A DNA stretch of 22,309 bases, from positions 1-22,309 of the forward strand of contig NW_003122813.1 of the NCBI RefSeq assembly GCF_000003605.2. Reading direction: 5' to 3'. The notes under the pieces were generated by a model. That model did not search any database and was not told the origin of the DNA. It worked only from the letters and a program-made list of their open reading frames with translations. Both the position numbers and the translations under genes were made by a program. The DNA is from Saccoglossus kowalevskii (lineage: Eukaryota; Hemichordata; Enteropneusta; Harrimaniidae). Below are positions 1 through 22,003 of this stretch, one piece after another; position 1 is the stretch's first letter, and every line of letters begins with the position of its first letter.

Positions 1-207
1 TGTAAAATGGTTAATTTTCACTGGGTTTAAATTTCGCTGATTTAGCATTTCAGGCATATTCAGTGGGTTTTAAATTCACGATTTTATTATTTAGATAATG
101 TGTTCTATGCTAAATTTTACATATTCACTGGGTTTTAATTTAGCGCATTTTTGCAGTCAGCGAAATAAGCGAAATTAAAACCCAGTGAATAATTAACCCT
201 TTTACAG
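1..207 (+). mobile_element. 208-bp miniature inverted-repeat element, copy 1 (lacks first base at window edge)
   Basis: This is a non-coding, AT-rich (about 30% GC) element matching the other four copies, but the window starts at its second base, so the initial C and the left target TA are outside. It ends in TTTTACAG at 207 and is followed by TA (208-209). Its internal architecture is best read here. A TTCACTGGGTTT motif lies at 17-28, related direct copies at 59-76 and 124-141, and an inverted copy at 172-189. A 9-bp inverted pair, ATTTAGCAT and ATGCTAAAT, lies at 40-48 and 107-115. No open reading frame of useful length exists, so any movement would depend on a transposase encoded elsewhere. 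It is identical by eye to copy 2. Confidence 0.85.
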
Positions 208-960
208 TAACATATGAGCAACCTGTCTTTAAAGACCACCTGCCTATAGGGCCACTTTTAGGCAGTCCCAAGGCATAAAGTATGAGCAATCTGTCTTTAA
301 AGACCACCTGCCTATAGGGCCACTTTTAGGCAGTCCCAAGGCATAAAGTATGAGCAACCTGTCTTTAAAGACCACCTGCCTATAGGGCCACTTTTAGGCA
401 GTCCCAAGGCATAAAGTATGAGCAACCTGTCTTTAAAGACCACCTGCCTATAGGGCCACTTTTAGGCAGTCCCAAGGCATAACATATGAGCAACCTATCT
501 TTAAAGACCACCTGCCTGTAGGGCCACTTTTAGGCAGTCCCAAGGCATAACGTATGAGCAACCTGTCTTTAAAGACCACCTGCCTATAAGGCCACTTTTA
601 GGCAGTCCCAAGGCACAAAGTATGAGCAACCTGTCTTTAAAGACCACCTGCCTATAGGGCCACTTTTAGGCAGTCCCAAGGCATAAAGTATGAACAACCT
701 GTCTTTAAAGACCACCTGCCTATAGGGCCACTTTTAGGCAGTCCCAAGGCATAAAGTATGAGCAACCTGTCTTTAAAGACCACCTGCCTATAGGGCCACT
801 GTTAGGCAGTCCCAAGGCATAAAGTATGAGCAATCTGTCTTTAAAGACCACCTGCCTATAGGGCCACTTTTAGGCAGTCCCAAGGCATAAAGTATGAGCA
901 ACCTATCTTTAAAGACCACCTGCCTATAGGGCCACTTTTAGGCAGTCCCAAGGCATAAAG

Positions 961-1028
961 TATGAGCAACCTGTCTTTAAAGACCACCTGCCTATAGGGC
1001 CACTTTTAGGCAGTCCCAAGGCATAACA
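961..1028. repeat. Representative 68-bp monomer with internal palindromes
   Basis: One monomer chosen to show the symmetry carried by most copies. A perfect 12-bp palindrome GTCTTTAAAGAC lies at 973-984, reduced to 10 bp in ctatc variants. A CTGCCTA arm at 988-994 and its exact complement TAGGCAG at 1007-1013 form a 7-bp stem with a 12-base loop. CCTATAGG at 991-998 is a third palindrome overlapping the left arm. Monomers with the aca triplet add CATATG at the junction. Such symmetry could form hairpins or be a dimeric protein site, but nothing in the window shows which. Confidence 0.85.
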
Positions 1029-1516
1029 TATGAGCAACCTATCTTTAAAGACCACCTGCCTGTAGGGCCACTTTTAGGCAGTCCCAAGGCATAACGTATG
1101 AGCAACCTGTCTTTAAAGACCACCTGCCTATAGGGCCACTGTTAGGCAGTCCCAAGGCATAAAGTATGAGCAATCTGTCTTTAAAGACCACCTGCCTATA
1201 GGGCCACTTTTAGGCAGTCCCAAGGCATAAAGTATGAGCAACCTATCTTTAAAGACCACCTGCCTATAGGGCCACTTTTAGGCAGTCCCAAGGCATAAAG
1301 TATGAGCAACCTGTCTTTAAAGACCACCTGCCTATAGGGCCACTTTTAGGCAGTCCCAAGGCATAACATATGAGCAACCTATCTTTAAAGACCACCTGCC
1401 TGTAGGGCCACTTTTAGGCAGTCCCAAGGCATAACGTATGAGCAACCTGTCTTTAAAGACCACCTGCCTATAGGGCCACTTTTAGGCAGTCCCAAGGCAT
1501 AACGTATGAGCAACCT

Positions 1517-1604
1517 CTATATAAAGACCACCTGCTTATAGTAACCAGATCTATACTAAGACCACCTGCTTATAGTGACCAGCTCTATATAAAGACCATC
1601 TGCC
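1517..1604. repeat. Half-unit block, subtype a (copy 1)
   Basis: Two 34-bp units (1517-1550 and 1551-1584) begin ctatataaag and ctatactaag and share accacctgcttatagt. They are followed by a third start, ctatataaagaccatctgcc (1585-1604), which runs back into a normal monomer. Flanking tatgag starts at 1505 and 1641 are 136 bp apart, exactly two monomers, so two half-length units stand in for one 68-bp unit. Subtype a is marked by ctatactaag and by the following monomers: cccaaagcata, then gcaagctgtc 197 bp from the block start, with cctacagg and ccacttgttgg. Confidence 0.9.
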
Positions 1605-3216
1605 TATAGGGCCACTTTTAGGCAGTCCCAAAGCATAACGTATGAGCAACCTATCTTTAAAGACCACCTGCCTATAGGGCCACTTTTAGGCAGTCCCAAG
1701 GCATACTGTATGAGCAAGCTGTCTTTAAAGACCACCTGCCTACAGGGCCACTTGTTGGCAGTCCCAAGGCATAACATATGAGCAACCTATCTTTAAAGAC
1801 CACCTGCCTATAGGGCCACTTTTAGGCAGTCCCAAGGCATAAAGTATGAGCAACCTGTCTTTAAAGACCACCTGCCTATAGGGCCACTTTTAGGCAGTCC
1901 CAAGGCATACTGTATGAGCAACCTATCTTTAAAGACCACCTGCCTATAGGGCCACTTTTAGGCAGTCCCAAGGCATAACGTATGAGCAACCTGTCTTTAA
2001 AGACCACCTGCCTATAGGGCCACTTTTAGGCAGTCCCAAGGCATACTGTATGAGCAACCTATCTTTAAAGACCACCTGCCTATAGGGCCACTTTTAGGCA
2101 GTCCCAAGGCATACTGTATGAGCAACCTATCTTTAAAGACCACCTGCCTGTAGGGCCACTTTTAGGCAGTCCCAAGGCATAACGTATGAGCAACCTGTCT
2201 TGAAAGACCACCTGCCTATAGGGCCACTTTGAGGCAGTCCCAAGGCATAACATATGAGCAACCTATCTTTAAAGACCACCTGCCTATAGGGCCACTTATA
2301 GGCAGTCCCAAGGCATAAAGTATGAGCAACCTGTCTTTAAAGACCGCCTGCCTATAGGGCCACTTTTAGGCAGTCCCAAGGCATACTGTATGAGCAACCT
2401 ATCTTTAAAGACCACCTGCCTATAGGGCCACTTTTAGGCAGTCCCAAGGCATAACGTATGAGCAACCTGTCTTTAAAGACCACCTGCCTATAGGGCCACT
2501 TTTAGGCAGTCCCAAGGCATACTGTATGAGCAACCTATCTTTAAAGACCACCTGCCTATAGGGCCACTTTTAGGCAGTCCCAAGGCATACTGTATGAGCA
2601 ACCTATCTTTAAAGACCACCTGCCTGTAGGGCCACTTTTAGGCAGTCCCAAGGCATAACGTATGAGCAACCTGTCTTTAAAGACCACTTGCCTATAGGGC
2701 CACTTTTAGGCAGTCCCAAGGCATAACATATGAGCAATCTATCTTTAAAGACCACCTGCCTATAGGGCCACTTATAGGCAGTCCCAAGGCATAAAGTATG
2801 AGCAACCTGTCTTTAAAGACCACCTGCCTATAAGGCCACTTTTAGGCAGTCCCAAGGCATAAAGTATGAGCAACCTGTCTTTAAAGACCACCTGCCTATA
2901 GGGCCACTTTTAGGCAGTCCCAAGGCATAAAGTATGAGCAACCTGTCTTTAAAGACCACCTGCCTATAGGGCCACTTTTAGGCAGTCCCAAGGCATAACA
3001 TATGAGCAACCTATCTTTAAAGACCACCTGCCTGTAGGGCCACTTTTAGGCAGTCCCAAGGCATAACGTATGAGCAACCTGTCTTTAAAGACCACCTGCC
3101 TATAGGGCCACTTTTAGGCAGTCCCAAGGCATAACATATGAGCAACCTATCTTTAAAGACCACCTGCCTATAGGGCCACTTTTAGGCAGTCCCAAGGCAT
3201 AACGTATGAGCAACCT

Positions 3217-3304
3217 TTATATAAAGACCACCTGCTTATAGTAACCAGATCTATACAAAGACCACCTGCTTATAGTGACCAGCTCTATATAAAGACCATC
3301 TGCC
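3217..3304. repeat. Half-unit block, subtype b (copy 2)
   Basis: Same 34 + 34 bp construction as the block at 1517, but the first unit begins ttatataaag and the second ctatacaaag. Flanking tatgag starts (3205 and 3341) are again 136 bp apart. Element copy 2 starts exactly 257 bp after the block start, a spacing shared by every subtype b block. Confidence 0.9.
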
Positions 3305-3473
3305 TATAGGGCCACTTTTAGGCAGTCCCAAGGCATAACGTATGAGCAACCTATCTTTAAAGACCACCTGCCTATAGGGCCACTTTTAGGCAGTCCCAAG
3401 GCATAAAGTATGAGCAACCTGTCTTTAAAGACCACCTGCCTATAGGGCCACTTTTAGGCAGTCCCAATGCATA

Positions 3474-3681
3474 CTGTAAAATGGTTAATTTTCACTGGGT
3501 TTAAATTTCGCTGATTTAGCATTTCAGGCATATTCAGTGGGTTTTAAATTCACGATTTTATTATTTAGATAATGTGTTCTATGCTAAATTTTACATATTC
3601 ACTGGGTTTTAATTTAGCGCATTTTTGCAGTCAGCGAAATAAGCGAAATTAAAACCCAGTGAATAATTAACCCTTTTACAG
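3474..3681 (+). mobile_element. 208-bp TA-flanked miniature inverted-repeat element, copy 2 (complete)
   Basis: The element starts CTGTAAAA and ends TTTTACAG and is flanked by TA on both sides (3472-3473 and 3682-3683). Its inverted ends are long: about 39 bases on the left (3474-3512) match about 40 on the right (3642-3681), with two mismatches and one single-base gap. Shared blocks are GTTAATT, TTCACTGGGTTT and AATTTCGCT. Removing the element plus one TA restores gcaTAacatatgag, the ordinary monomer junction, so the insertion point and the TA duplication are read directly. TA duplication and size fit a non-autonomous element mobilised by a Tc1/mariner-type transposase. That family assignment is inference, because no transposase is present and the tip is not a known family signature to me. 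Confidence 0.9.
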
Positions 3682-4855
3682 TAACATATGAGCAACCTGT
3701 CTTTAAAGACCACCTGCCTATAGGGCCACTTTTAGGCAGTCCCAAGGCATAAAGTATGAGCAATCTGTCTTTAAAGACCACCTGCCTATAGGGCCACTTT
3801 TAGGCAGTCCCAAGGCATAAAGTATGAGCAACCTGTCTTTAAAGACCACCTGCCTATAGGGCCACTTTTAGGCAGTCCCAAGGCATAAAGTATGAGCAAC
3901 CTGTCTTTAAAGACCACCTGCCTATAGGGCCACTTTTAGGCAGTCCCAAGGCATAAAGTATGAACAACCTGTCTTTAAAGACCACCTGCCTATAGGGCCA
4001 CTTTTAGGCAGTCCCAAGGCATAAAGTATGAGCAACCTGTCTTTAAAGACCACCTGCCTATAGGGCCACTGTTAGGCAGTCCCAAGGCATAAAGTATGAG
4101 CAATCTGTCTTTAAAGACCACCTGCCTATAGGGCCACTTTTAGGCAGTCCCAAGGCATAAAGTATGAGCAACCTATCTTTAAAGACCACCTGCCTATAGG
4201 GCCACTTTTAGGCAGTCCCAAGGCATAAAGTATGAGCAACCTGTCTTTAAAGACCACCTGCCTATAGGGCCACTTTTAGGCAGTCCCAAGGCATAACATA
4301 TGAGCAACCTATCTTTAAAGACCACCTGCCTGTAGGGCCACTTTTAGGCAGTCCCAAGGCATAACGTATGAGCAACCTGTCTTTAAAGACCACCTGCCTA
4401 TAGGGCCACTGTTAGGCAGTCCCAAGGCATAAAGTATGAGCAATCTGTCTTTAAAGACCACCTGCCTATAGGGCCACTTTTAGGCAGTCCCAAGGCATAA
4501 AGTATGAGCAACCTGTCTTTAAAGACCACCTGCCTATAAGGGCCACTTTTAGGCAGTCCCAAGGCATAAAGTATGAGCAACCTATCTTTAAAGACCACCT
4601 GCCTATAGGGCCACTTTTAGGCAGTCCCAAGGCATAAAGTATGAGCAACCTGTCTTTAAAGACCACCTGCCTATAGGGCCACTTTTAGGCAGTCCCAAGG
4701 CATAACATATGAGCAACCTATCTTTAAAGACCACCTGCCTGTAGGGCCACTTTTAGGCAGTCCCAAGGCATAACGTATGAGCAACCTGTCTTTAAAGACC
4801 ACCTGCCTATAGGGCCACTTTTAGGCAGTCCCAAGGCATAACGTATGAGCAACCT

Positions 4856-4943
4856 CTATATAAAGACCACCTGCTTATAGTAACCAGATCTATACTAAGA
4901 CCACCTGCTTATAGTGACCAGCTCTATATAAAGACCATCTGCC
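4856..4943. repeat. Half-unit block, subtype a (copy 3)
   Basis: Two 34-bp units with ctatactaag in the second, followed by cccaaagcata and, 197 bp from the block start, gcaagctgtc with cctacagg and ccacttgttgg. This matches the block at 1517 by eye. Confidence 0.9.
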
Positions 4944-6147
4944 TATAGGGCCACTTTTAGGCAGTCCCAAAGCATAACGTATGAGCAACCTATCTTTAAA
5001 GACCACCTGCCTATAGGGCCACTTTTAGGCAGTCCCAAGGCATACTGTATGAGCAAGCTGTCTTTAAAGACCACCTGCCTACAGGGCCACTTGTTGGCAG
5101 TCCCAAGGCATAACATATGAGCAACCTATCTTTAAAGACCACCTGCCTATAGGGCCACTTTTAGGCAGTCCCAAGGCATAAAGTATGAGCAACCTGTCTT
5201 TAAAGACCACCTGCCTATAAGGCCACTTTTAGGCAGTCCCAAGGCATAAAGTATGAGCAACCTGTCTTTAAAGACCACCTGCCTATAGGGCCACTTTTAG
5301 GCAGTCCCAAGGCATAAAGTATGAGCAACCTGTCTTTAAAGACCACCTGCCTATAGGGCCACTTTTAGGCAGTCCCAAGGCATAACATATGAGCAACCTA
5401 TCTTTAAAGACCACCTGCCTGTAGGGCCACTTTTAGGCAGTCCCAAGGCATAACGTATGAGCAACCTGTCTTTAAAGACCACCTGCCTATAGGGCCACTT
5501 TTAGGCAGTCCCAAGGCATAACATATGAGCAACCTATCTTTAAAGACCACCTGCCTATAGGGCCACTTTTAGGCAGTCCCAAGGCATAACATATGAGCAA
5601 CCTATCGTTAAAGACCACCTGCCTATAGGGCCACTTTTAGACAGTCCCATGGCATAAAGTATGAGCAACCTCTCTTTAAAGACCACCTGCCTATAGGGCC
5701 ACTTTTAGGCAGTCCCAAGGCACAAAGTATGAGCAACCTGTCTTTAAAGACCACCTGCCTTTTGGACCACTTTTAGGCAGTCCCAAGGTATAACGTATGA
5801 GCAACCTATCTTTGAAGACCGCCTACCTATAGGGACACTTTTAGGCAGTCCCAAGGCATAACATATGAGCAACCTATCTTTAAAGACTACCTGCCTATAG
5901 GGCCACTTTTAGGCAGTCCCAAGAGATAAAGTATGAGCAACCTATCGTTAAAGACCACCTGCCTATAGGGCCACTTTTAGACAGTCCCAAGGCATAAAGT
6001 ATGAGCAACCTGTCTTTAAAGACCACCTGCCTATAGGACCACTTTTAGGCAGTCCAAAGGCATAACATATGAGCAACCTATCTTTAAAGACCACCTGCCT
6101 ATAGGCCCACTTTTAGGCAGTCCCAAGGGATAAAGTATGAGCAACCT

Positions 6148-6235
6148 TTATATAAAGACCACCTGCCTATAGTAACCAGATCTATACAAAGACCACCTGC
6201 TTATAGTGACCAGCTCTATATAAAGACCATCTGCC
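6148..6235. repeat. Half-unit block, subtype b (copy 4, variant)
   Basis: Subtype b by its ttatataaag and ctatacaaag starts, but the first unit has cctgcctatagt where the others have cctgcttatagt, and the preceding monomer is gggataaag rather than gcataacg. This may be a small conversion from an ordinary monomer. Element copy 3 starts 257 bp after the block start. Confidence 0.9.
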
Positions 6236-6404
6236 TATAGGGCCACTTTTAGGCAGTCCCAAGGCATAACGTATGAGCAACCTATCTTTAAAGACCACCT
6301 GCCTATAGGGCCACTTTTAGGCAGTCCCAAGGCATAAAGTATGAGCAACCTGTCTTTAAAGACCACCTGCCTATAGGGCCACTTTTAGGCAGTCCCAATG
6401 CATA

Positions 6405-6612
6405 CTGTAAAATGGTTAATTTTCACTGGGTTTAAATTTCGCTGATTTAGCATTTCAGGCATATTCAGTGGGTTTTAAATTCACGATTTTATTATTTAGA
6501 TAATGTGTTCTATGCTAAATTTTACATATTCACTGGGTTTTAATTTAGCACATTTTTGCAGTCAGCGAAATAAGCGAAATTAAAACCCAGTGAATAATTA
6601 ACCCTTTTACAG
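6405..6612 (+). mobile_element. 208-bp miniature inverted-repeat element, copy 3 (complete)
   Basis: Same length, ends, orientation and TA flanks (6403-6404 and 6613-6614) as copy 2. It differs by one substitution, tttagcaca instead of tttagcgca, in the third quarter of the element. It sits after the same derived monomer ending cccaaTgcata and exactly 257 bp downstream of a 34-bp half-unit block, as copies 2 and 5 do. This shows that the copy arose by duplication of the surrounding satellite segment rather than by a new transposition. Confidence 0.9.
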
Positions 6613-6901
6613 TAACATATGAGCAACCTGTCTTTAAAGACCACCTGCCTATAGGGCCACTTTTAGGCAGTCCCAAGGCATAAAGTATGAGCAACCTATC
6701 TTTAAAGACCACCTGCCTGTAGGGCCACTTTTAGGCAGTCCCAAAGCATAACGTATGAGCAACCTGTCTTTAAAGACCACCTGCCTATAGGGCCACTTTT
6801 AGGCAGTCCCAAGGCATAACATATGAGCAACCTATCTTTAAAGACCACCTGCCTATAGGGCCACTTTTAGGCAGTCCCAAGGCATAACGTATGAGCAACC
6901 T

Positions 6902-6989
6902 CTATATAAAGACCACCTGCTTATAGTAACCAGATCTATACTAAGACCACCTGCTTATAGTGACCAGCTCTATATAAAGACCATCTGCC
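6902..6989. repeat. Half-unit block, subtype a (copy 5)
   Basis: Same sequence as the blocks at 1517 and 4856 by eye, again with gcaagctgtc 197 bp from its start (7099). It lies only 952 bp (14 monomers) before a subtype b block, the closest pairing of the two subtypes in the window. Confidence 0.9.
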
Positions 6990-7853
6990 TATAGGGCCAC
7001 TTTTAGGCAGTCCCAAAGCATAACGTATGAGCAACCTATCTTTAAAGACCACCTGCCTATAGGGCCACTTTTAGGCAGTCCCAAGGCATACTGTATGAGC
7101 AAGCTGTCTTTAAAGACCACCTGCCTACAGGGCCACTTGTTGGCAGTCCCAAGGCATAAAGTATGAGCAACCTATCTTTAAAGACCACCTGCCTATAGGG
7201 CCACTTTTAGGTAGTCCCAAGGCATAACATATGAGCAACCTATCTTTAAAGACCACCTGCCTATAGGGCCACTTTTAGGCAGTCCCAAGGCATAAAGTAT
7301 GAGCAACCTGTCTTTAAAGACCACCTGCCTATAGGGCCACTTTTAGGCAGTCCCAAGGCATACTGTATGAGCAACCTATCTTTAAAGACCACCTGCCTAT
7401 AGGGCCACTTTTAGGCAGTCCCAAGGCATACTGTATGAGCAACCTATCTTTAAAGACCACCTGCCTATAGGGCCACTTTTAGGCAGTCCCAAGGCATACT
7501 GTATGAGCAACCTATCTTTAAAGACCACCTGCCTATAGGGCCACTTTTAGGCAGTCCCAAGGCATAAAGTATGAGCAACCTGTCTTTAAAGACCACCTGC
7601 CTATAGGGCCACTTTTAGGCAGTCCCAAGGCATAACATATGAACAACCTATCTTTAAAGACCACCTGCCTGTAGGGCCACTTTTAGGCAGTCCCAAGGCA
7701 TAACGTATGAGCAACCTGTCTTTAAAGACCACCTGCCTATAGGGCCACTTTTAGGCAGTCCCAAGGCATAACATATGAGCAACCTATCTTTAAAGACCAC
7801 CTGCCTATAGGGCCACTTTTAGGCAGTCCCAAGGCATAACGTATGAGCAACCT

Positions 7854-7941
7854 TTATATAAAGACCACCTGCTTATAGTAACCAGATCTATACAAAGACC
7901 ACCTGCTTATAGTGACCAGCTCTATATAAAGACCATCTGCC
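7854..7941. repeat. Half-unit block, subtype b (copy 6)
   Basis: Subtype b by ttatataaag and ctatacaaag. The CTAG scar at 8111 lies 257 bp after its start, the position occupied by the element in other copies. Confidence 0.9.
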
Positions 7942-8110
7942 TATAGGGCCACTTTTAGGCAGTCCCAAGGCATAACGTATGAGCAACCTATCTTTAAAGA
8001 CCACCTGCCTATAGGGCCACTTTTAGGCAGTCCCAAGGCATAAAGTATGAGCAACCTATCTTTAAAGACCACCTGCCTATAGGGCCACTTTTAGGCAGTC
8101 CCAATGCATA

Positions 8111-8114
8111 CTAG
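8111..8114. other. CTAG scar at former element site (putative excision footprint 1)
   Basis: The junction reads gcaTA-CTAG-TAacatatgag. Compared with the ordinary monomer junction gcaTAacatatgag, it has six extra bases: a second TA plus CTAG. CT equals the first two bases of the element and AG its last two. The scar follows the private cccaaTgcata change and lies 257 bp after a half-unit block, exactly where elements sit elsewhere. It is therefore a site that once held the element, not an unoccupied ancestral site. A two-base stagger at each end is the behaviour known for Tc1-type transposases; assignment to that family is inference. Confidence 0.8.
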
Positions 8115-10613
8115 TAACATATGAGCAACCTGTCTTTAAAGACCACCTGCCTATAGGGCCACTTTTAGGCAGTCCCAAGGCATAAAGTATGAGCAATCTG
8201 TCTTTAAAGACCACCTGCCTATAGGGCCACTTTTAGGCAGTCCCAAGGCATAAAGTATGAGCAACCTGTCTTTAAAGACCACCTGCCTATAGGGCCACTT
8301 TTAGGCAGTCCCAAGGCATAAAGTATGAGCAACCTGTCTTTAAAGACCACCTGCCTATAGGGCCACTTTTAGGCAGTCCCAAGGCATAACATATGAGCAA
8401 CCTATCTTTAAAGACCACCTGCCTGTAGGGCCACTTTTAGGCAGTCCCAAGGCATAACGTATGAGCAACCTGTCTTTAAAGACCACCTGCCTATAAGGCC
8501 ACTTTTAGGCAGTCCCAAGGCACAAAGTATGAGCAACCTGTCTTTAAAGACCACCTGCCTATAGGGCCACTTTTAGGCAGTCCCAAGGCATAAAGTATGA
8601 GCAACCTGTCTTCAAAGACCACCTGCCTATAGGGCCACTTTTAGGCAGTCCCAAGGCATAAAGTATGAGCAACCTGTCTTTAAAGACCACCTGCCTATAG
8701 GGCCACTGTTAGGCAGTCCCAAGGCATAAAGTATGAGCAATCTGTCTTTAAAGACCACCTGCCTGTAGGCCCACTTTTAGGCAGTCCCAAGGGATAAAGT
8801 ATGAGCAACCTATCTTTAAAGACCACCTGCCTATAGGGCCACTTTTAGGCAGTCACAAGGCATAACGTATAAGCAACCTGTCTTTAAAGACCACCTGCTT
8901 GTAGGGCCACTTTTAGGCAGTCTCAAGGCATAACATATGAGCAACCTATCTTTAAAGACCACCTGCCTGTAAGGCCACTTTTAGGCAGTCCCAAGGCATA
9001 ACGTATGAGCAATCTATCTTTAAAGACCACCTGCCTATAGGGCCACTGTTAGGCAGTCCCAAGGCATAACATATGAGCAACCTATCTTTAAAGACCACCT
9101 GCCTGTAGGGCCACTTTTAGGCAGTCCCAAGGCATAACGTATGAGCAACCTGTCTTTAAAGACCACCTGCCTATAGGGCCACGTTTAGGCAGTCCCAAGG
9201 CATAACATATGAGCAACCTATCTTTAAAGACCACCTGCCTATAGGGCCACTTTTAGGCAGTCCCAAGGCATAACATATGAGCAACCTATCTTTAAGGACC
9301 ACCTGCCTGTAAGGCCACTTTTAGGCAGTCCCAAGGCATAACGTACGAGCAACCTATCTTTAAAGACCACCTACCTATAGGGCCACTTTTAGGCAGTCCC
9401 AAGGCATAAAGTATAAGCAACCTGTCTTTAAAGACCACCTGCCTATAGGGCCATTTTTAGGCAGTCCCAAGACATAACGTATTAGCAACCTATCTTTAAA
9501 GACCACCTGCCTATAGGGCCACTTTTAGGCAGTCCCAAGGCATAAAGTATGAGCAACCTGTCTTTAAAGACCACCTGCCTATATGGCCACTTTTAGGCAG
9601 TGCCAAGGCATAACATATGAGCAACCTGTCTTTAAAGACCACCTGCCTATAGGGCCACTTTTAGGCAGTCCCAAGGCATAACATATGAGCAACCTATCTT
9701 TAAAGACCACCTGCCTATAGGGCCACTTTTAGGCAGTCCCAAGGCATAAAGTATGAGCAACCTATCTTTAAAGACCACCTGCCTATAGGGCCACTTTTAG
9801 GCAGTCCAAAGGCATAACATATGAGCAACCTATCTTTAAAGACCACCTGCCTATAGGGCCACTTTTAGGCAGTCCCAAGGGATAAAGTATGAGCAACCTG
9901 TCTTTAAAGACCACCTGCCTATAGGGCCACTTTTAGGCAGTCCCAAGGGATAAAGTATGAGCAACCTGTCTTTAAAGACCACCTGCCTATAGGACCACTT
10001 TTAGGCAGTCCCAAGGCATAACATATGAGCAACCTATCTTTAAAGACCACCTGCCTATAGGGCCACTTTTAGGCAGTCCCAAGGCATAAAGTATGAGCAA
10101 CCTGTCTTTAAAGACCACCTGCCTATATGGCCACTTTTAGGCAGTCCCAAGGCATAACATATGAGCAACCTGTCTTTAAAGACCACCTGCCTATAGGGCC
10201 ACTTTTAGGCAGTCCCAAGGCATAACGTATGAGCAACCTGTCTTTAAAGACCACCTGCCTATAGGGCCACTTTTAGGCAGTCCCAAGGCATACTGTATGA
10301 GCAACCTATCTTTAAAGACCACCTGCCTATAGGGCCACTTTTAGGCAGTCCCAAGGCATACTGTATGAGCAACCTATCTTTAAAGACCACCTGCCTGTAG
10401 GGCCACTTTTAGGCAGTCCCAAGGCATAACGTATGAGCAACCTGTCTTTAAAGACCACTTGCCTATAGGGCCACTTTTAGGCAGTCCCAAGGCATAACAT
10501 ATGAGCAACCTATCTTTAAAGACCACCTGCCTATAGGGCCACTTATAGGCAGTCCCAAAGCATAAAGTATGAGCAACCTGTCTTTAAAGACCACCTGCCT
10601 ATAAGGCCACTTT

Positions 10614-10857
10614 TAGCAGTCCCAAGGCATAAAGTATGAGCAACCTGTCTTTAAAGACCACCTGCCTATAGGGCCACTTTTAGCAGTCCACGCATAAAGT
10701 ATGAGCAACCTGTCTTTAAAGACCACCTGCCTATAGGGCCACTTTTAGGCAGTCCAAGGCATAAAGTATGAGCAATCTGTCTTAAAGACACTGCTGTAGG
10801 CCCACTTTTAGGCAGTCCAAGGGATAAAGTATGAGCAACTATCTTTAAAGACCACTG
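10614..10857. other. Indel cluster: twelve missing bases in about four monomers
   Basis: Within this stretch the monomers lose single bases repeatedly: ttttagcag for ttttaggcag, gtccacgcat for gtcccaaggcat, gtccaagg for gtcccaagg, tgtcttaaagacactgctg for the usual longer form, gcaactatc for gcaacctatc, and accactgcc for accacctgcc. By eye the losses total 12, exactly the shortfall of tract 4 from a whole number of 68-bp units. Most losses shorten a run of two or three identical bases. This pattern is typical of unpolished long-read consensus, though real local decay is possible. Confidence 0.8.
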
Positions 10858-11315
10858 CCTATAGGGCCACTTTTAGGCAGTCCCAAGGCACAAAGTATGA
10901 GCAACCTGTCTTTAAAGACCACCTGCCTATAGGGCCACTTTTAGGCAGTCCCAAGGCATAAAGTATGAGCAACCTGTCTTTAAAGACCACCTGCCTATAG
11001 GGCCACTTTTAGGCAGTCCCAAGGCATAAAGTATGAGCAACCTGTCTTTAAAGACCACCTGCCTATAGGGCCACTGTTAGGCAGTCCCAAGGCATAACAT
11101 ATGAGCAACCTATCTTTAAAGACCACCTGCCTGTAGGGCCACTTTTAGGCAGTCCCAAGGCATAACGTATGAGCAACCTGTCTTTAAAGACCACCTGCCT
11201 ATAGGGCCACTTTTAGGCAGTCCCAAGGCATAACATATGAGCAACCTATCTTTAAAGACCACCTGCCTATAGGGCCACTTTTAGGCAGTCCCAAGGCATA
11301 ACGTATGAGCAACCT

Positions 11316-11403
11316 CTATATAAAGACCACCTGCTTATAGTAACCAGATCTATACTAAGACCAACTGCTTATAGTGACCAGCTCTATATAAAGACCATCT
11401 GCC
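11316..11403. repeat. Half-unit block, subtype a (copy 7)
   Basis: Subtype a, with a single change in the second unit (agaccaactgc for agaccacctgc). gcaagctgtc, cctacagg and ccacttgttgg follow at the usual 197-bp spacing (11513). Confidence 0.9.
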
Positions 11404-12075
11404 TATAGGGCCACTTTTAGGCAGTCCCAAAGCATAACGTATGAGCAACCTATCTTTAAAGACCACCTGCCTATAGGGCCACTTTTAGGCAGTCCCAAGG
11501 CATACTGTATGAGCAAGCTGTCTTTAAAGACCACCTGCCTACAGGGCCACTTGTTGGCAGTCCCAAGGCATAAAGTATGAGCAACCTATCTTTAAAGACC
11601 ACCAGCCTATAGGGCCACTTTTAGGTAGTCCCAAGGCATAACATATGAGCAACCTATCTTTAAAGACCACCTGCCTATAGGGCCACTTTTAGGCAGTCCC
11701 AAGGCATAAAGTATGAGCAACCTGTCTTTAAAGACCACCTGCCTATAGGGCCACTTTTAGGCAGTCCCAAGGCATACTGTATGAGCAACCTATCTTTAAA
11801 GACCACCTGCCTATAGGGCCACTTTTAGGCAGTCGCAAGGCATAACGTATGTGCAACCTGTCTTTAAAGACCACCTGCCTATAGGGCCACTTTTAGGCAG
11901 TCCCAAGGCATACTGTATGAGCAACCTATCTTTAAAGACCACCTGCCTATAGGGCCACTTTTAGGCAGTCCCAAGGCATACTGTATGAGCAACCTATCTT
12001 TAAAGACCACCTGCCTGTAGGGCCACTTTTAGGCAGTCCCAAGGCATAACGTATGAGCAACCTGTCTTTAAAGAC

Positions 12076-13707
12076 CACTTGCCTATAGGGCCACTTTTAG
12101 GCAGTCCCAAGGCATAACATATGAGCAACCTATCTTTAAAGACCACCTGCCTATAGGGCCACTTATAGGCAGTCCCAAGGCATAAAGTATGAGCAACCTG
12201 TCTTTAAAGACCACCTGCCTATAAGGCCACTTTTAGGCAGTCCCAAGGCATAAAGTATGAGCAACCTATCTTTAAAGACCACCTGCCTATAGGGCCACTT
12301 TTAGGCAGTCACAAGGCATAACGTATAAGCAACCTGTCTTTAAAGACCACCTGCTTGTAGGGCCACTTTTAGGCAGTCTCAAGGCATAACATATGAGCAA
12401 CCTATCTTTAAAGACCACCTGCCTGTAAGGCCACTTTTAGGCAGTCCCAAGGCATAACGTATGAGCAATCTATCTTTAAAGACCACCTACCTATAGGGCC
12501 ACTTTTAGGCAGTCCCAAGGCATAAAGTATAAGCAACCTGTCTTTAAAGACCACCTGCCTATAGGGCCACTTTTAGGCAGTCCCAAGACATAACGTATGA
12601 GCAACCTATCTTTAAAGACCACCTGCCTATAGGGCCACTTTCAGGCAGTCCCAAGGCATAAAGTATGAGCAACCTGTCTTTAAAGACCACCTGCCTATAA
12701 GGCCACTTTTAGGCAGTCCCAAGGCATGACATATGAGCAACCTGTCTTTAAAGACCACATGCCTATAGGGCCACTTGTAGGCAGTCCCAAAGCATAACAT
12801 ATGAGCAACCTATCTTTAAAGACCACCTGCCTATAGGGCCACTTTTAGGCAGTCCCAAGGCATAAAGTATGAGCAACCTGTCTTTAAAGACCACCTGCCT
12901 ATAGGGCCACCTTTAGGCAGTCCCAAGGCATAACATATGAGCAACCTATCTTTAAAGACCACCTGCCTATAGGGCCACTTTTAGGCAGTCCCAAGGCATA
13001 ACATATGAGCAACCTATCGTTAAAGACCACCTGCCTATAGGGCCACTTTTAGACAGTCCCATGGCATAAAGTATGAGCAACCTCTCTTTAAAGACCACCT
13101 GCCTATAGGGCCACTTTTAGGCAGTCCCAAGGCATAACATATGAGCAACCTGTCTTTAAAGACCACCTGCCTATAGGGCCACTTTTAGGCAGTCCCAAGG
13201 CATACTGTATGAGCAACCTATCTTTAAAGACCACCTGCCTATAGGGCCACTTTTAGGCAGTCCCAAGGCATAACGTATGAGCAACCTGTCTTTAAAGACC
13301 ACCTGCCTATAGGGCCACTTTTAGGCAGTCCCAAGGCATACTGTATGAGCAACCTATCTTTAAAGACCACCTGCCTATAGGGCCACTTTTAAGCAGTCCC
13401 AAGGCATACTGTATGAGCAACCTATCTTTAAAGACCACCTGCCTGTAGGGCCACTTTTAGGCAGTCCCAAGGCATAACGTATGAGCAACCTGTCTTTAAA
13501 GACCACTTGCCTATAGGGCCACTTTTAGGCAGTCCCAAGGCATAACGTATGAGCAACCTATCTTTAAAGACCACCTGCCTATAGGGCCACTTTTAGGCAG
13601 TCCCAAGGCATACTGTATGAGCAACCTATCTTTAAAGACCACCTGCCTGTAGGGCCACTTTTAGGCAGTCCCAAGGCATAACGTATGAGCAACCTGTCTT
13701 TAAAGAC
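12076..13707. repeat. 1632-bp (24-monomer) higher-order period marked by accacttgcc
   Basis: The marker cacttgcc starts at 12076 and again at 13708, exactly 24 monomers apart, each followed 86 bp later by acttatagg and then by a ctataagg monomer. The preceding copy at 10456 is 1620 bp away, which becomes 1632 when the 12 bases lost in the indel cluster are added back. Further copies of the suite start at 2685 and 18895, and a partial one at 13504. The tract between the scars at 14497 and 16135 has the same 24-monomer length. Confidence 0.75.
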
Positions 13708-14239
13708 CACTTGCCTATAGGGCCACTTTTAGGCAGTCCCAAGGCATAACATATGAGCAACCTATCTTTAAAGACCACCTGCCTATAGGGCCACTTATAG
13801 GCAGTCCCAAGGCATAAAGTATGAGCAACCTGTCTTTAAAGACCACCTGCCTATAAGGCCACTTTTAGGCAGTCCCAAGGCATAAAGTATGAGCAACCTG
13901 TCTTTAAAGACCACCTGCCTATAGGGCCACTTTTAGGCAGTCCCAAGGCATAAAGTATGAGCAACCTGTCTTTAAAGACCACCTGCCTATAGGGCCACTT
14001 TTAGGCAGTCCCAAGGCATAACATATAAGCAACCTATCTTTAAAGACCACCTGCCTGTAGGGCCACTTTTAGGCAGTCCCAAGGCATAACGTATGAGCAA
14101 CCTGTCTTTAAAGACCACCTGCCTATAGGGCCACTTTTAGGCAGTCCCAAGGCATAACATATGAGCAACCTATCTTTAAAGACCACCTGCCTATAGGGCC
14201 ACTTTTAGGCAGTCCCAAGGCATAACGTATGAGCAACCT

Positions 14240-14327
14240 TTATATAAAGACCACCTGCTTATAGTAACCAGATCTATACAAAGACCACCTGCTTATAGTG
14301 ACCAGCTCTATATAAAGACCATCTGCC
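14240..14327. repeat. Half-unit block, subtype b (copy 8)
   Basis: Subtype b; the CTAG scar at 14497 lies 257 bp after its start. The accacttgcc marker at 13708 is 532 bp upstream, the same distance as from 2685 to the block at 3217. The linked neighbourhood therefore extends well beyond the block. Confidence 0.9.
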
Positions 14328-14496
14328 TATAGGGCCACTTTTAGGCAGTCCCAAGGCATAACGTATGAGCAACCTATCTTTAAAGACCACCTGCCTATAG
14401 GGCCACTTTTAGGCAGTCCCAAGGCATAAAGTATGAGCAACCTGTCTTTAAAGACCACCTGCCTATAGGGCCACTTTTAGGCAGTCCCAATGCATA

Positions 14497-14500
14497 CTAG
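14497..14500. other. CTAG scar at former element site (putative excision footprint 2)
   Basis: Junction TA-CTAG-TA preceded by cccaatgca and followed by atatatgag. The C-to-T change downstream (taatatatg instead of taacatatg) is shared with the scars at 16135 and 20838 but not with the one at 8111. The scar lies 257 bp after the half-unit block starting at 14240. Confidence 0.8.
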
Positions 14501-16134
14501 TAATATATGAGCAACCTGTCTTTAAAGACCACCTGCCTATAGGGCCACTTTTAGGCAGTCCCAAGGCATAACATATGAGCAATCTGTCTTTAAAGACCAC
14601 CTGCCTGTAGGACCACTTTTAGGCAGTCCCAAGGCATAACGTATGAGCAACCTGTCTTTAAAGACCACCTGCCTATAAGGCCACTTTTAGGCAGTCCCAA
14701 GGCACAAAGTATGAGCAACCTGTCTTTAAAGACCACCTGCCTATAGGGCCACTTTTAGGCAGTCCCAAGGCATAAAGTATGAGCAACCTGTCTTTAAAGA
14801 CCACCTGCCTATAGGGCCACTTTTAGGCAGTCCCAAGGCATAAAGTATGAGCAATCTGTCTTTAAAGACCACCTGCCTATAGGGCCACTTTTAGGCAGTC
14901 CCAAGGCATAAAGTATGAGCAACCTGTCTTTAAAGACCACCTGCCTATAGGGCCACTTTTAGGCAGTCCCAAGGCATAACATATGAGCAACCTATCTTTA
15001 AAGACCACCTGCCTGTAGGACCACTTTTAGGCAGTCCCAAGGCATAACGTATGAGCAACCTGTCTTTAAAGACCACCTGCCTATAAGGCCACTTTTAGGC
15101 AGTCCCAAGGCACAAAGTATGAGCAACCTGTCTTTAAAGACCACCTGCCTATAGGGCCACTTTTAGGCAGTCCCAAGGCATAAAGTATGAGCAACCTGTC
15201 TTTAAAGACCACCTGCCTATAGGGCCACTTTTAGGCAGTCCCAAGGCATAACATATGAGCAACCTATCTTTAAAGACCACCTGCCTGTAGGGCCACTTTT
15301 AGGCAGTCCCAAGGCATAACGTATGAGCAACCTGTCTTTAAAGACCACCTGCCTATAAGGCCACTTTTAGGCAGTCCCAAGGCACAAAGTATGAGCAACC
15401 TGTCTTTAAAGACCACCTGCCTATAGGGCCACTTTTAGGCAGTCCCAAGGCATAAAGTATGAGCAACCTGTCTTTAAAGACCACCTGCCTATAGGGCCAC
15501 TTTTAGGCAGTCCCAAGGCATAACATATGAGCAACCTGTCTTTAAAGACCACCTGCCTATAGGGCCACTTTTAGGCAGTCCCAAGGCATAACATATGAGC
15601 AACCTATCTTTAAAGACCACCTGCCTATAGGGCCACTTTTAGGCAGTCCCAAGGCATAACATATAAGCAACCTATCTTTAAAGACCACCTGCCTGTAGGG
15701 CCACTTTTAGGCAGTCCCAAGGCATAACGTATGAGCAACCTGTCTTTAAAGACCACCTGCCTATAGGGCCACTTTTAGGCAGTCCCAAGGCATAACATAT
15801 GAGCAACCTATCTTTAAAGACCACCTGCCTATAGGGCCACTTTTAGGCAGTCCCAAGGCATAACGTATGAGCAACCTTTATATAAAGACCACCTGCTTAT
15901 AGTAACCAGATCTATACAAAGACCACCTGCTTATAGTGACCAGCTCTATATAAAGACCATCTGCCTATAGGGCCACTTTTAGGCAGTCCCAAGGCATAAC
16001 GTATGAGCAACCTATCTTTAAAGACCACCTGCCTATAGGGCCACTTTTAGGCAGTCCCAAGGCATAAAGTATGAGCAACCTGTCTTTAAAGACCACCTGC
16101 CTATAGGGCCACTTTTAGGCAGTCCCAATGCATA
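14501..16134. repeat. 68-bp satellite tract 5 (exactly 24 monomers)
   Basis: Length is 1634 bp, 24 x 68 plus TA. It is bounded by two CTAG scars, so it is one complete higher-order unit. Inside it a short suite (aca/cctgtag, acg/ctataagg, cacaaag, aag) recurs: the cacaaag monomer appears at 14703, 15111 and 15383, spaced exactly six and four monomers apart. It ends with half-unit block 15878-15965 and the cccaaTgcata monomer. Confidence 0.95.
15878..15965. repeat. Half-unit block, subtype b (copy 9)
   Basis: Subtype b; the scar at 16135 lies 257 bp after its start. It is 1638 bp after the previous subtype b block, which is 24 monomers plus the six scar bases. Confidence 0.9.
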
Positions 16135-16138
16135 CTAG
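16135..16138. other. CTAG scar at former element site (putative excision footprint 3)
   Basis: Same TA-CTAG-TA junction and the same downstream taatatatg variant as the scar at 14497, exactly 24 monomers (plus the 6-bp scar) further on. It lies 257 bp after the block starting at 15878. The two scars are copies made by duplication of a higher-order unit. Confidence 0.8.
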
Positions 16139-18385
16139 TAATATATGAGCAACCTGTCTTTAAAGACCACCTGCCTATAGGGCCACTTTTAGGCAGTCCC
16201 AAGGCATAAAGTATGAGCAATCTGTCTTTAAAGACCACCTGCCTATAGGGCCACTTTTAGGCAGTCCCAAGGCATAAAGTATGAGCAACCTGTCTTTAAA
16301 GACCACCTGCCTATAGGGCCACTTTTAGGCAGTCCCAAGGCATAACATATGAGCAACCTATCTTTAAAGACCACCTGCCTGTAGGGCCACTTTTAGGCAG
16401 TCCCAAGGCATAACGTATGAGCAACCTGTCTTTAAAGACCACCTGCCTATAAGGCCACTTTTAGGCAGTCCCAAGGCACAAAGTATGAGCAACCTGTCTT
16501 TAAAGACCACCTGCCTATAGGGCCACTTTTAGGCAGTCCCAAGGCATAAAGTATGAGCAACCTGTCTTTAAAGACCACCTGCCTATAGGGCCACTTTTAG
16601 GCAGTCCCAAGGCATAACATATGAGCAACCTGTCTTTAAAGACCACCTGCCTATAGGGCCACTTTTAGGCAGTCCCAAGGCATAACGTATGAGCAACCTA
16701 TCTCTAAAGACCACCTACCTATAGGGCCACTTTTAGGCAGTCCCAAGGCATAAAGTAAAAGCAACCTGCCTTTAAAGACCACCTGCCTCTAGGGATACTT
16801 TTAGGCAGTCCCAAGGCATAACATATGAGCAACCTATCTTTAAAGACCACCTGCCTATAGGGCCCACTTTTAGGCAGTCCCAAGGCATAACGTATGAGCA
16901 ACCTATCTCTAAAGACCACCTACCTATAGGGCCACTTTTAGGCAGTCCCAAGGCATAAAGTAAAAGCAACCTATATTTAAAGACCACCTGCCTATAGGGC
17001 CACTTTTAGGCAGTCCCAAGGCATAACGTATGAGCAACCTATCTTTAAAGACCACCTGCCTATAGGGCCACTTTTAGGCAGTCCCAAGGCATAAAGTATG
17101 AGCAACCTATCTTTAAAGACCACCTGCCTATAGGGCCACTTTTAGGCAGTCCAAAGGCATAACATATGAGCAACCTATCGTTAAAGACCACCTGCCTATA
17201 GGGCCACTTTTAGGCAGTCCCAAGGCATAACATATGAGCAACCTATCTTTAAAGACCACCTACCTATAGGGCCACTTTTAGGCAGTCCCAAGGCATAAAG
17301 TATAAGCAACCTGTCTTTAAAAACCACCTGCCTATAGGGCCACTTTTAGGCAGTCCCAAGGCATAACGTATGAGCAACCTATATTTAAAGACCACCTGCC
17401 TATAGGGCCACTTTTAGGCAGTCCCAAGGCATAAAGTATGAGCAACCTGTCTTTAAAGACAACCTGCCTATAGGACCACTTTTAGGTAGTCCCAAGGCAT
17501 AACGTATGAGCAACCTGCCTTTAAAGACCACCTGCCTTTAGGGATACTTTTAGGCAGTCCCAAGGCATAACATATGAGCAACCTATCTTTAAAGACCACC
17601 TGCCTATAGGGCCACTTTTAGGCAGTCCCAAGGCATAACGTATGAGCAACCTATCTCTAAAGACCACCTACCTATAGGGCCACTTTTAGGCAGTCCCAAG
17701 GCATAAAGTAAAAGCAACCTGCCTTTAAAGACCACCTGCCTCTAGGGATACTTTTAGGCAGTCCCAAGGCATAACATATGAGCAACCTATCTTTAAAGAC
17801 CACCTGCCTATAGGGCCACTTTTAGGCAGTCCCAAGGCATAACGTATGAGCAACCTATCTCTAAAGACCACCTACCTATAGGGCCACTTTTAGGCAGTCC
17901 CAAGGCATAAAGTAAAAGCAACCTATATTTAAAGACCACCTGCCTATAGGGCCACTTTTAGGCAGTCCCAAGGCATAACGTATGAGCAACCTATCTTTAA
18001 AGACCACCTGCCTATAGGGCCACTTTTAGGCAGTCTTAAGGCATAACGTATAAGCAACCTGTCTTTAAAGACCACCTGCCTGTAGGGCCACTTTTAGGCA
18101 GTCCCAAGGCATAACATATGAGAAACCTATCTTTAAAGACCACCTGCCTGTAAGGCCACTTTTAGGCAGTCCCAAGGCATAACGTATGAGCAACCTATCT
18201 TTAAAGACCACCTACCTATAGGGCCACTTTTAGGCAATCCCAAGGCATAAAGTATAAGCAACCTGTCTTTAAAGACCACCTGCCTATAGGGCCACTTTTA
18301 GGCAGTCCCAAGGCATAAAGTATGAGCAACCTGTCTTTAAAGACCACCTGCCTATAGGGCCACTTTTAGGCAGTCCCAATGCATA
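16139..18385. repeat. 68-bp satellite tract 6 (33 monomers, one extra base)
   Basis: Length is 2247 bp, 33 x 68 plus TA plus one extra C in the run at 16863-16865 (gggcccac instead of gggccac). The first monomers copy the start of tract 8 in variant order. From 16684 to about 18000 the array is made of an unusual monomer group (tatctctaaag, cctacc, taaaagcaacc, ctagggatac) that occurs twice at a lag of 14 monomers. No half-unit block is present before the element at its end. Confidence 0.95.
16684..18000. repeat. Local segmental duplication of unusual monomers at a 14-monomer lag
   Basis: The sequence tatctctaaag/cctacc, taaaagcaacctgcc/ctagggatac, aca/ctatc, tatctctaaag/cctacc, taaaagcaacctatattt occurs twice. 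The taaaagcaacctgcc monomer starts at 16756 and 17709. The taaaagcaacctatattt monomer starts at 16961 and 17913. The offsets are 953 and 952 bp, the difference being the extra C near 16864. This is a recent duplication of at least five monomers, probably as part of a 14-monomer segment. Confidence 0.75.
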
Positions 18386-18593
18386 CTGTAAAATGGTTAA
18401 TTTTCACTGGGTTTAAATTTCGCTGATTTAGCATTTCAGGCATATTCAGTGGGTTTTAAATTCACGGTTTTATTATTTAGATAATGTGTTCTATGCTAAA
18501 TTTTACATATTCACTGGGTTTTAATTTAGCGCATTTTTGCAGTCAGCGAAATAAGCGAAATTAAAACCCAGTGAATAATTAACCCTTTTACAG
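18386..18593 (+). mobile_element. 208-bp miniature inverted-repeat element, copy 4 (complete)
   Basis: Complete copy with TA flanks (18384-18385 and 18594-18595). It shares with copy 5 one substitution, attcacgg instead of attcacga in the middle of the element, which separates copies 4 and 5 from copies 1 to 3. The upstream junction carries the usual cccaaTgcata change. Unlike copies 2, 3 and 5, there is no half-unit block 257 bp upstream; ordinary monomers with tataagc and cctacc variants lie there. The left flank therefore looks replaced by unequal exchange between different higher-order units. Confidence 0.9.
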
Positions 18594-20837
18594 TAACATA
18601 TGAGCAACCTGTCTTTAAAGACCACCTGCCTATAGGGCCACTTTTAGGCAGTCCCAAGGCATAACATATGAGCAACCTATCTTTAAAGACCACCTGCCTA
18701 TAGGGCCACTTTTAGGCAGTCCCAAGGCTTAACGTATGAGCAACCTATCTTTAAAGACCACCTGCCTATAGGGCCACTTTTAGGCAGTCCCAAGGCATAC
18801 TGTATGAGCAACCTATCTTTAAAGACCACCTGCCTGTAGGGCCACTTTTAGGCAGTCCCAAGGCATAACGTATGAGCAACCTGTCTTTAAAGACCACTTG
18901 CCTATAGGGCCACTTTTAGGCAGTCCCAAGGCATAACATATGAGCAACCTATCTTTAAAGACCACCTGCCTATAGGGCCACTTATAGGCAGTCCCAAGGC
19001 ATAAAGTATGAGCAACCTGTCTTTAAAGACCACCTGCCTATAAGGCCACTTTTAGGCAGTCCCAAGGCATAAAGTATGAGCAACCTGTCTTTAAAGACCA
19101 CCTGCCTATAGGGCCACTTTTAGGCAGTCCCAAGGCATAAAGTATGAGCAACCTGTCTTTAAAGACCACCTGCCTATAGGGCCACTTTTAGGCAGTCCCA
19201 AGGCATAACATATAAGCAACCTATCTTTAAAGACCACCTGCCTGTAGGGCCACTTTTAGGCAGTCCCAAGGCATAACGTATGAGCAACCTGTCTTTAAAG
19301 ACCACCTGCCTATAGGGCCACTTTTAGGCAGTCCCAAGGCATAACATATGAGCAACCTATCTTTAAAGACCACCTGCCTATAGGGCCACTTTTAGGCAGT
19401 CCCAAGGCATAAAGTATGAGCAACCTGTCGTTAAAGACCACCTGCCTATAGGGCCACTTTTAGGCAGTCCCAAGGCATAATATATGAGCAACCTATCTTT
19501 AAAGACCACCTGCCTACAGGCCCACTTTCATGCAGTCCCAAGGGATTAAGTATGAGCAACCTATCTTTAAAGACCACCTGCCTATAGGGCCACTTTTAGG
19601 CAGTCCCAAGGGATAAAGTATGAGCAACCTGTCTTTAAAGACCACCTGCCTTTTGGACCACTTTTAGGCAGTCCCAAGGTATAACGTATGAGCAACCTAT
19701 CTTTGAAGACCGCCTACCTATAGGGACACTTTTAAGCAGTCCCAAGGCATAACGTATGAGCAATCTATCTTTAAAGACCACCTACCTATAGGGCCACTTT
19801 TAGGCAGTCCCAAGGCATAAAGTATAAGCAACCTGTCTTTAAAGACCACCTGCCTATAGGGCCACTTTTAGGCAGTCCCAAGACATAACGTATGAGCAAC
19901 CTATCTTTAAAGACCACCTGCCTATAGGGCCACTTTCAGGCAGTCCCAAGGCATAAAGTATGAGCAACCTGTCTTTAAAGACCACCTGCCTATAAGGCCA
20001 CTTTTAGGCAGTCCCAAGGCATGACATATGAGCAACCTGTCTTTAAAGACCACCTGCCTATAGGGCCACTTTTAGGCAGTCCCAAAGCATAACATATGAG
20101 CAACCTATCTTTAAAGACCACCTGCCTATAGGGCCACTTTTAGGCAGTCCCAAGGCATAAAGTATGAGCAACCTCTATTTAAAGACCACCTGCCTATAGG
20201 GCCACTTTTAGGCAGTCCCAAGGCATAACATATGAGCAACCTATCTTTAAAGACCACCTGCCTATAGGGCCACTTTTAGGCAGTCCCAAGGCATAACATA
20301 TGAGCAACCTATCGTTAAAGACCACCTGCCTATAGGGCCACTTTTAGACAGTCCCACGGCATAAAGTATGAGCAACCTCTCTTTAAAGACCACCTGCCTA
20401 TAGGGCCACTTTTAGGCAGTCCCAAGGCATAACATATGAGCATCCTATCTTTAAAGACCACCTGCCTATAGGCCCACTTTTAGGCAGTCCCAAGGGATAA
20501 AGTATGAGCAACCTGTCTTTAAAGACCACCTGCCTATAGGGCCACTTTTAGGCAGTCGCAAGGCATAACGTATGAGCAACCTATCTTTAAAGACCACCTG
20601 CCTATAGGACCACTTTTAGCAGTCCCAAGTATAAAGTATGAGCAACCTGTCTTTAAAGACCACCTGCCTATAGGGCCACTTTTAGGCAGTCCCAAGGCAT
20701 AACGTATGAGCAACCTATCTTTAAAGACCACCTGCCTATAGGGCCACTTTTAGGCAGTCCCAAGGCATAAAGTATGAGCAACCTGTCTTTAAAGACCACC
20801 TGCCTATAGGGCCACTTTTAGGCAGTCCCAATGCATA
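18594..20837. repeat. 68-bp satellite tract 7 (33 monomers, two bases missing)
   Basis: Length is 2244 bp, which is 33 x 68 plus TA minus two. The missing bases are at about 20619 (ttttagcag for ttttaggcag) and 20630 (caagtataaag for caaggcataaag). The early part repeats the accacttgcc/ccacttatagg suite (18895 and 18981). The later part repeats the diverged group seen in tract 2 (ttttggacc, tttgaagaccgcc, tatcgtt, ttttagacag). No half-unit block occurs before the scar that ends the tract. Confidence 0.95.
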
Positions 20838-20841
20838 CTAG
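20838..20841. other. CTAG scar at former element site (putative excision footprint 4)
   Basis: Same junction, upstream cccaatgca and downstream taatatatg as the scars at 14497 and 16135. Here the half-unit block that normally lies 257 bp upstream is absent, as also before element copy 4. This suggests an exchange that swapped the left flank. Confidence 0.8.
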
Positions 20842-21795
20842 TAATATATGAGCAACCTGTCTTTAAAGACCACCTGCCTATAGGGCCACTTTTAGGCAGT
20901 CCCAAGGCATAAAGTATGAGCAATCTGTCTTTAAAGACCACCTGCCTATAGGGCCACTTTTAGGCAGTCCCAAGGCATAAAGTATGAGCAACCTGTCTTT
21001 AAAGACCACCTGCCTATAGGGCCACTTTTAGGCAGTCCCAAGGCATAACATATGAGCAACCTATCTTTAAAGACCACCTGCCTGTAGGGCCACTTTTAGG
21101 CAGTCCCAAGGCATAACGTATGAGCAACCTGTCTTTAAAGACCACCTGCCTATAAGGCCACTTTTAGGCAGTCCCAAGGCACAAAGTATGAGCAACCTGT
21201 CTTTAAAGACCACCTGCCTATAGGGCCACTTTTAGGCAGTCCCAAGGCATAAAGTATGAGCAACCTGTCTTTAAAGACCACCTGCCTATAGGGCCACTTT
21301 TAGGCAGTCCCAAGGCATAACATATGAGCAACCTATCTTTAAAGACCACCTGCCTGTAGGGCCACTTTTAGGCAGTCCCAAGGCATAACGTATGAGCAAC
21401 CTGTCTTTAAAGACCACCTGCCTATAGGGCCACTTTTAGGCAGTCCCAAGGCATAACATATGAGCAACCTATCTTTAAAGACCACCTGCCTATAGGGCCA
21501 CTTTTAGGCAGTCCCAAGGCATAACGTATGAGCAACCTTTATATAAAGACCACCTGCTTATAGTAACCAGATCTATACAAAGACCACCTGCTTAAAGTGA
21601 CCAGCTCTATATAAAGACCATCTGCCTATAGGGCCACTTTTAGGCAGTCCCAAGGCATAACGTATGAGCAACCTATCTTTAAAGACCACCTGCCTATAGG
21701 GCCACTTTTAGGCAGTCCCAAGGCATAAAGTATGAGCAACCTGTCTTTAAAGACCACCTGCCTATAGGGCCACTTTTAGGCAGTCCCAATGCATA
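20842..21795. repeat. 68-bp satellite tract 8 (exactly 14 monomers)
   Basis: Length is 954 bp, 14 x 68 plus TA, running from a CTAG scar to element copy 5. Monomer order is gcaatc, aca/cctgtag, acg/ctataagg, cacaaag, aag, aag, aca/cctgtag, acg, aca, acg, then half-unit block 21539-21626 and the cccaaTgcata monomer. It is a shortened version of the 24-monomer unit in tract 5. Confidence 0.95.
21539..21626. repeat. Half-unit block, subtype b (copy 10)
   Basis: Subtype b with one private change in the second unit (cttaaagtg for cttatagtg). Element copy 5 starts 257 bp after the block start. Confidence 0.9.
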
Positions 21796-22003
21796 CTGTA
21801 AAATGGTTAATTTTCACTGGGTTTAAATTTCGCTGATTTAGCATTTCAGGCATATTCAGTGGGTTTTAAATTCACGGTTTTATTATTTAGATAATGTGTT
21901 CTATGCTAAATTTTACATATTCACTGGGTTTTAATTTAGCGCATTTTTGCAGTCAGCGAAATAAGCGAAATTAAAACCCAGTGAATAATTAACCCTTTTA
22001 CAG
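21796..22003 (+). mobile_element. 208-bp miniature inverted-repeat element, copy 5 (complete)
   Basis: Complete copy with TA flanks (21794-21795 and 22004-22005), the same orientation and the same private substitution as copy 4. It lies 257 bp downstream of the half-unit block starting at 21539 and after a monomer ending cccaaTgcata. The sequence downstream (aca then acg monomers with ctatc) matches what follows copy 4 for about two monomers, supporting a common duplicated segment. Confidence 0.9.

Follow-up and report, generated by a model that had tools for sequence, protein, structure and literature searches.

The satellite array and its filled and scarred units

The window analysed here, of 22,309 bp, is the entire contig C1541; the assembly to which this contig belongs has 4830 contigs and 572,110,611 bases. 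The window is made nearly completely of a 68-bp satellite in a single array, for which Tandem Repeats Finder gave a period of 68 with 89% matches and in which we found 301 monomer junctions. Four monomers read gcaTA-CTAG-TA and five hold a MITE of 208 bp; these are called scarred and filled units, respectively. Rfam and tRNA searches of the window gave no match, and its comparison with a phage collection and viral contigs gave no lead. The features are the following:

1..207, + strand: filled site F0, MITE lacking its first base (bases 2-208 present), as the contig starts here
208..22307, + strand: 68-bp satellite array with inserts, about 300 monomers (Tandem Repeats Finder and junction count)
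3474..3681, + strand: filled site F1, 208-bp MITE, with TA at 3472-3473 and 3682-3683
6405..6612, + strand: filled site F2, 208-bp MITE
8111..8114, + strand: scar S1, CTAG with TA on either side; followed downstream by TAACATATG, like the filled units
14497..14500, + strand: scar S2, CTAG; downstream TAATATATG
16135..16138, + strand: scar S3, CTAG; downstream TAATATATG
18386..18593, + strand: filled site F3, 208-bp MITE
20838..20841, + strand: scar S4, CTAG; downstream TAATATATG
21796..22003, + strand: filled site F4, 208-bp MITE

A first-pass annotation of this DNA had described four CTAG scars and five insertions of 208 bp. We found the sequence TACTAGTA at 8109, 14495, 16133 and 20836 of the window, which puts CTAG at 8111, 14497, 16135 and 20838, exactly where it had been reported. 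Taken alone this 8-mer is weak, as shuffling gave a mean of 1.5 occurrences and reached 4 in 5 of 100 shuffles, and its 4 matches in a two-contig sample (68,019 of 200,000 bases readable) come from a sample without power; the 30-base context of the scar, with up to 3 mismatches, was instead found at these 4 places only in the 572 Mb of the assembly, with 0 matches for the reversed control. The window search and this unique context confirm the four scars, and four of the five filled sites are complete as described. In F0 the first base is missing: the contig begins one base inside this MITE copy (window 1-207), a contig break at a repeat boundary. Monomers at 10600-10900 of the window are irregular, with small indels (spacings of 133, 64 and 63), possibly unpolished long-read sequence.

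The upstream G-to-T change of the filled and scarred units had been considered private to them, and within the window this holds: all 8 filled or scarred monomers whose upstream side can be seen have it (F0, which lacks this side, was left out of the count), against 0 of 293 others, among the 301 junctions (one-sided Fisher test, 6.6e-16, a value to be read with the caution that the units are copies and hence not independent). Outside the window it does not, since 2 of 78 loosely matched monomers of related arrays have the same change, without a scar, both on contig C3080, in a diverged array. A plain monomer with the G-to-T change had no match in the assembly (exact 28-base pattern, AAYRTATG types only). 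It had also been claimed that three of the scars lie 257 bp after a half-unit block, as the filled sites do. By subtraction, the block (TTATATAAAGACC) is found at this distance from 3 of 4 scars (8111, 14497 and 16135), in agreement with the claim, and, where the filled sites allow a judgement (4 of them), from 3 (3474, 6405 and 21796), so not from all; the filled site at 18386 and the scar at 20838 have no block at 257 bp.

Two further CTAG occurrences, at 16789 and 17742, were rejected as scars on account of their different position within the monomer. We also rejected as TA-CTG-TA scars the 23 monomers reading GCATACTGTA, which occur in runs with a spacing of 68 bp and are probably a substitution variant.

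The inserted element and its target site

The MITE has imperfect inverted ends, CTGTAAAA...TTTTACAG, which align well over about 47 bases. A first look at the assembly gave 2107 candidate copies, and among the 40 scored, 35 were near full-length copies outside the window, with 95-96% identity; 20 of the 35 were fetched for inspection of ends and flanks. These 20 are 207-208 bp long and all have TA on both sides; they start with CTG in 18 cases, TTG in one and CTA in one, and all 20 end with CAG, while the longer start is CTGTAAAA in 17 and a one-base variant of it in the other three. With respect to a consensus of 22 outside copies (the 20 fetched and two chance finds, L007 and L032) the outside copies diverge by 0.5-5.3% and the array copies by 3.4-4.3%, and by this measure the family is young. 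The five array copies differ from one another at two sites only, and for this reason we take them as copies of one insertion. In L007 a MITE lies about 0.2 kb from a TACTAGTA, which was rejected as a related scar, being in a separate place with a different flank.

To find empty sites, the joined flanks of the 20 copies were searched, which gave 1061 candidates, 40 of which were scored. Seventeen paralogous empty sites were examined, 15 for the L052 insertion and two for that of L036, and in each of the 17 there is just one TA, without added bases; the candidates C1946, C264 and C2952, as well as matches to a second MITE beside L035, were left unfetched. Together with the TA flanking 20 of 20 copies, the single TA at 17 of 17 empty sites indicates that TA is duplicated on insertion and that CT and AG belong to the element, and that the site before insertion was TA and not TACTAGTA. 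The L052 MITE sits in moderately repeated sequence, its 15 empty relatives (L073-L087) having 89-99% identity.

The element is short, has inverted terminal repeats, exists in many similar copies and is of nearly fixed length, as is typical of MITEs, and the TA target duplication seen in 20 of 20 copies and at 17 of 17 empty sites is that of Tc1/mariner elements. The terminal motif of Stowaway, CTCCCTCC, is not that of the fetched copies, which begin with CTGTAAAA or its one-base variants. At L035, a MITE with CTGTAAAA tips adjoins another, different one with the same tips, and a single TA serves both, a hint that several families may draw on one transposase source. The assembly contains 27 matches to DDE_3 and 54 to DDE_1; no transposase with the MITE ends was seen in the 8 loci fetched (4 of the 27 and 4 of the 54, two of them partly masked, each reaching about 1.5 kb beyond the match per side), and paired CTGTAAA ends around the DDE match were found in 0 of these 8. 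Short tip-like words are present in L070, but do not enclose the transposase match.

Origin of the CTAG junction

TA-CTAG-TA keeps exactly the first two and the last two bases of the element. We compared the junctions that would result from products keeping from -4 to 8 bases per side: the microhomology is 0 bp at CT|AG, versus 4 for TACTGTA, 3 for TACAGTA and 2 for plain TA, and 4 for one more product that also deletes flank bases. A footprint of a few terminal bases between two TAs is what Tc1/mariner elements leave, with a length given as 2-4 bp (PMC7913693); the scar has this form in four units that go back to one ancestral site, and points to excision there. A point against it is that all 17 empty sites from other places are plain, so that this type of scar is seen at one ancestral site only.

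The reading we favour, with a probability of about 0.92, consists of a MITE insertion, an excision leaving CTAG and the copying of both filled and scarred units. A 208-bp non-autonomous cut-and-paste MITE would have entered a single satellite monomer (gcaTAacatatgagc) at its TA, and the filled unit would have been multiplied by array turnover. One or more filled units would then have lost the element through cleavage that, on one strand, lay two bases inside the element ends, and end joining that retained both two-base tips would have given TA-CTAG-TA; finally, the scarred unit would have been amplified in its turn and become interspersed with filled and plain ones. The offset of the cleavage is deduced from the scar; a staggered cut and a Tc1/mariner-type enzyme are presumed. 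Excision as such, leaving a short scar between TAs, had been proposed in the first-pass annotation and is well supported by the flanks of the 20 outside copies, by the 17 empty sites and by the 2+2 bases joined without microhomology. The order from filled to scarred is presumed from the element family and not from related species. Against this reading count the outcome at the 8 transposase loci fetched, none of which has these ends, the mosaic flanks described below, and the fact that the case comes from one contig, with irregular monomer spacing near 10,600-10,900.

The same junction could in principle have arisen without transposase, if the interior of the element had been deleted by replication slippage or microhomology end joining. 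Inverted repeats are known to provoke deletions. The breakpoints, however, are symmetric, two bases from each end, with a microhomology of 0; moreover, the other scars sought beside the G-to-T change in the window (TACTGTA, TACAGTA or plain TA) are absent, all 8 units being either CTAG-scarred or filled, and we consider a deletion of this kind highly improbable. Nor do we give much credit, at a slightly lower level, to an artefact in which collapsed or mis-joined repeat units created the junction during assembly: the start of the contig one base inside the element and the irregular monomer spacing near 10,600-10,900 speak for it, but the identical 8 bases are present four times, in units whose flanks differ, and transposase cleavage predicts just this junction.

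In another scheme TACTAGTA would be the older site and the element would have entered between CT and AG without duplication, which is compatible with the scar if the element is counted as 204 bp. The outside copies, however, bring their own CT and AG ends (with two single-base tip variants in 20) and the paralogous empty sites have a plain TA; on these two grounds we rejected the scar as the ancestral site, and we regard its priority as extremely improbable. The related arrays agree with this. A search that skips very common words, and by which the window's own contig is unlisted, gave related-array stretches on other contigs with 72-90% identity (162 candidates, 38 scored). Among 233 monomers in 16 such stretches (17,616 bases), none has CTAGTA at the junction, and none of the 16 contains TACTAGTA or CTGTAAAA; CTAG alone is present once in each of three stretches, in other contexts. 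A CTAG-type junction in arrays without the G-to-T change or the element, which would have contradicted excision, was sought and found in 0 of 233 related-array monomers, and the scar in its 30-base context was found, in the whole assembly, on the present contig only. Among the related arrays, C3080 (L061 and L062) is a 116-kb contig with many related-satellite stretches, of 78-86% identity and with a unit of about 69 bp. In L055 and L060, a monomer has another short insertion just after GCATA (or GTATA), ACATACA-like or ACATCTAG-like, and these may be simple indels or else scars that other elements left.

Copying in the array and comparison with known systems

Exactly the same 471 bp upstream, ending in CT, are common to F1, S2 and S3, and exactly the same 488 bp downstream, starting with AG, are common to F0 and S1. 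Such exact flanks, breaking at the 2-base marks, indicate that the units were copied, and the amplification of the scar within the satellite, as originally suggested, is upheld by the long stretches that scarred and filled units have in common; the copying probably occurred by exchange within the array. The common core covers about 118 bp upstream in 8 sites, with a difference in S1 at -52; downstream it covers 70 bp in 9 sites, and position +3 is C in the filled units and S1 and T in S2-S4. Beyond the core both scarred and filled units have mosaic flanks, from which the order of the two cannot be read.

One excision followed by exchange explains the flank pattern, though S1 may stem from a second one. 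In this variant of the favoured reading, S1 and S2-S4 would each go back to one or more excisions of their own, with the same canonical scar and ordinary turnover in between. It would account for the C that S1 shares at +3 with all five filled units, for its exact identity with F0 over 488 bp downstream and for its closeness to F1 (272 bp compared on each side, with 1 mismatch upstream and 0 downstream), which look as though the element had gone from an F1/F0-like unit; recurrence is also expected of a canonical footprint. On the other hand, one excision, one C-to-T change and ordinary crossovers fit equally, and S1 and S2-S4 differ at only two sites in the core (about 118 + 70 bp). We see several excisions as an unlikely, though by no means negligible, course of events. 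Slightly more doubtful is the suggestion that the array records how one MITE was excised repeatedly, at least twice, from sister units, so that a satellite can serve as a natural assay of excision in many copies; if true, the ratio of filled to scarred units would set excision against array turnover.

On the preferred reading, of excision and subsequent copying, the locus is evidence, at the level of sequence, for mobilisation from a satellite array of a MITE family of this genome that is young and targets TA. The scar may serve as a tag of a satellite-unit lineage, unlikely to revert and usable to follow unequal exchange; the understanding of excision and array turnover is unchanged by it. 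The type of scar is well known, and its copying within a satellite is a tidy but modest extra in an unusual place. In the portions of the literature consulted we found no example of an excision footprint amplified inside a satellite.

ISY100 (Tc1/mariner/IS630) duplicates its TA target, as the present element does on insertion, and cuts two bases inside its ends (PMC2170065); the MITE differs from it in having no linked transposase and in a cleavage offset deduced from the scar. Bari1 of Drosophila, treated in a review of Tc1-type elements (PMC8834629), resembles our case as an element in heterochromatic tandem repeats for which one natural excision with a footprint is reported; there, however, the element is itself the tandem unit, and the excision described is at one adaptive insertion, with no satellite-copied scar in the portion consulted. 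An interaction of satellite arrays with mobile elements is also described for the Pacific oyster (PMC8268682), where segments left over from imprecise excision are discussed, but much of the satellitome is Helitron-related and the word footprint is absent from the main text. The closest likeness in form is a Stowaway MITE in the beta-amylase gene of Triticeae (PMC1925063), where the footprint of Thinopyrum elongatum is printed TACT...AGTA, with dots that we take as an alignment gap, and where further footprints are TACTCC and TACTC. That element too is a TA-target MITE and left the same footprint, two bases of each end between TAs; the difference is that it did so in a gene intron compared across species and with other element ends, whereas here the scar is carried by units of one satellite array.
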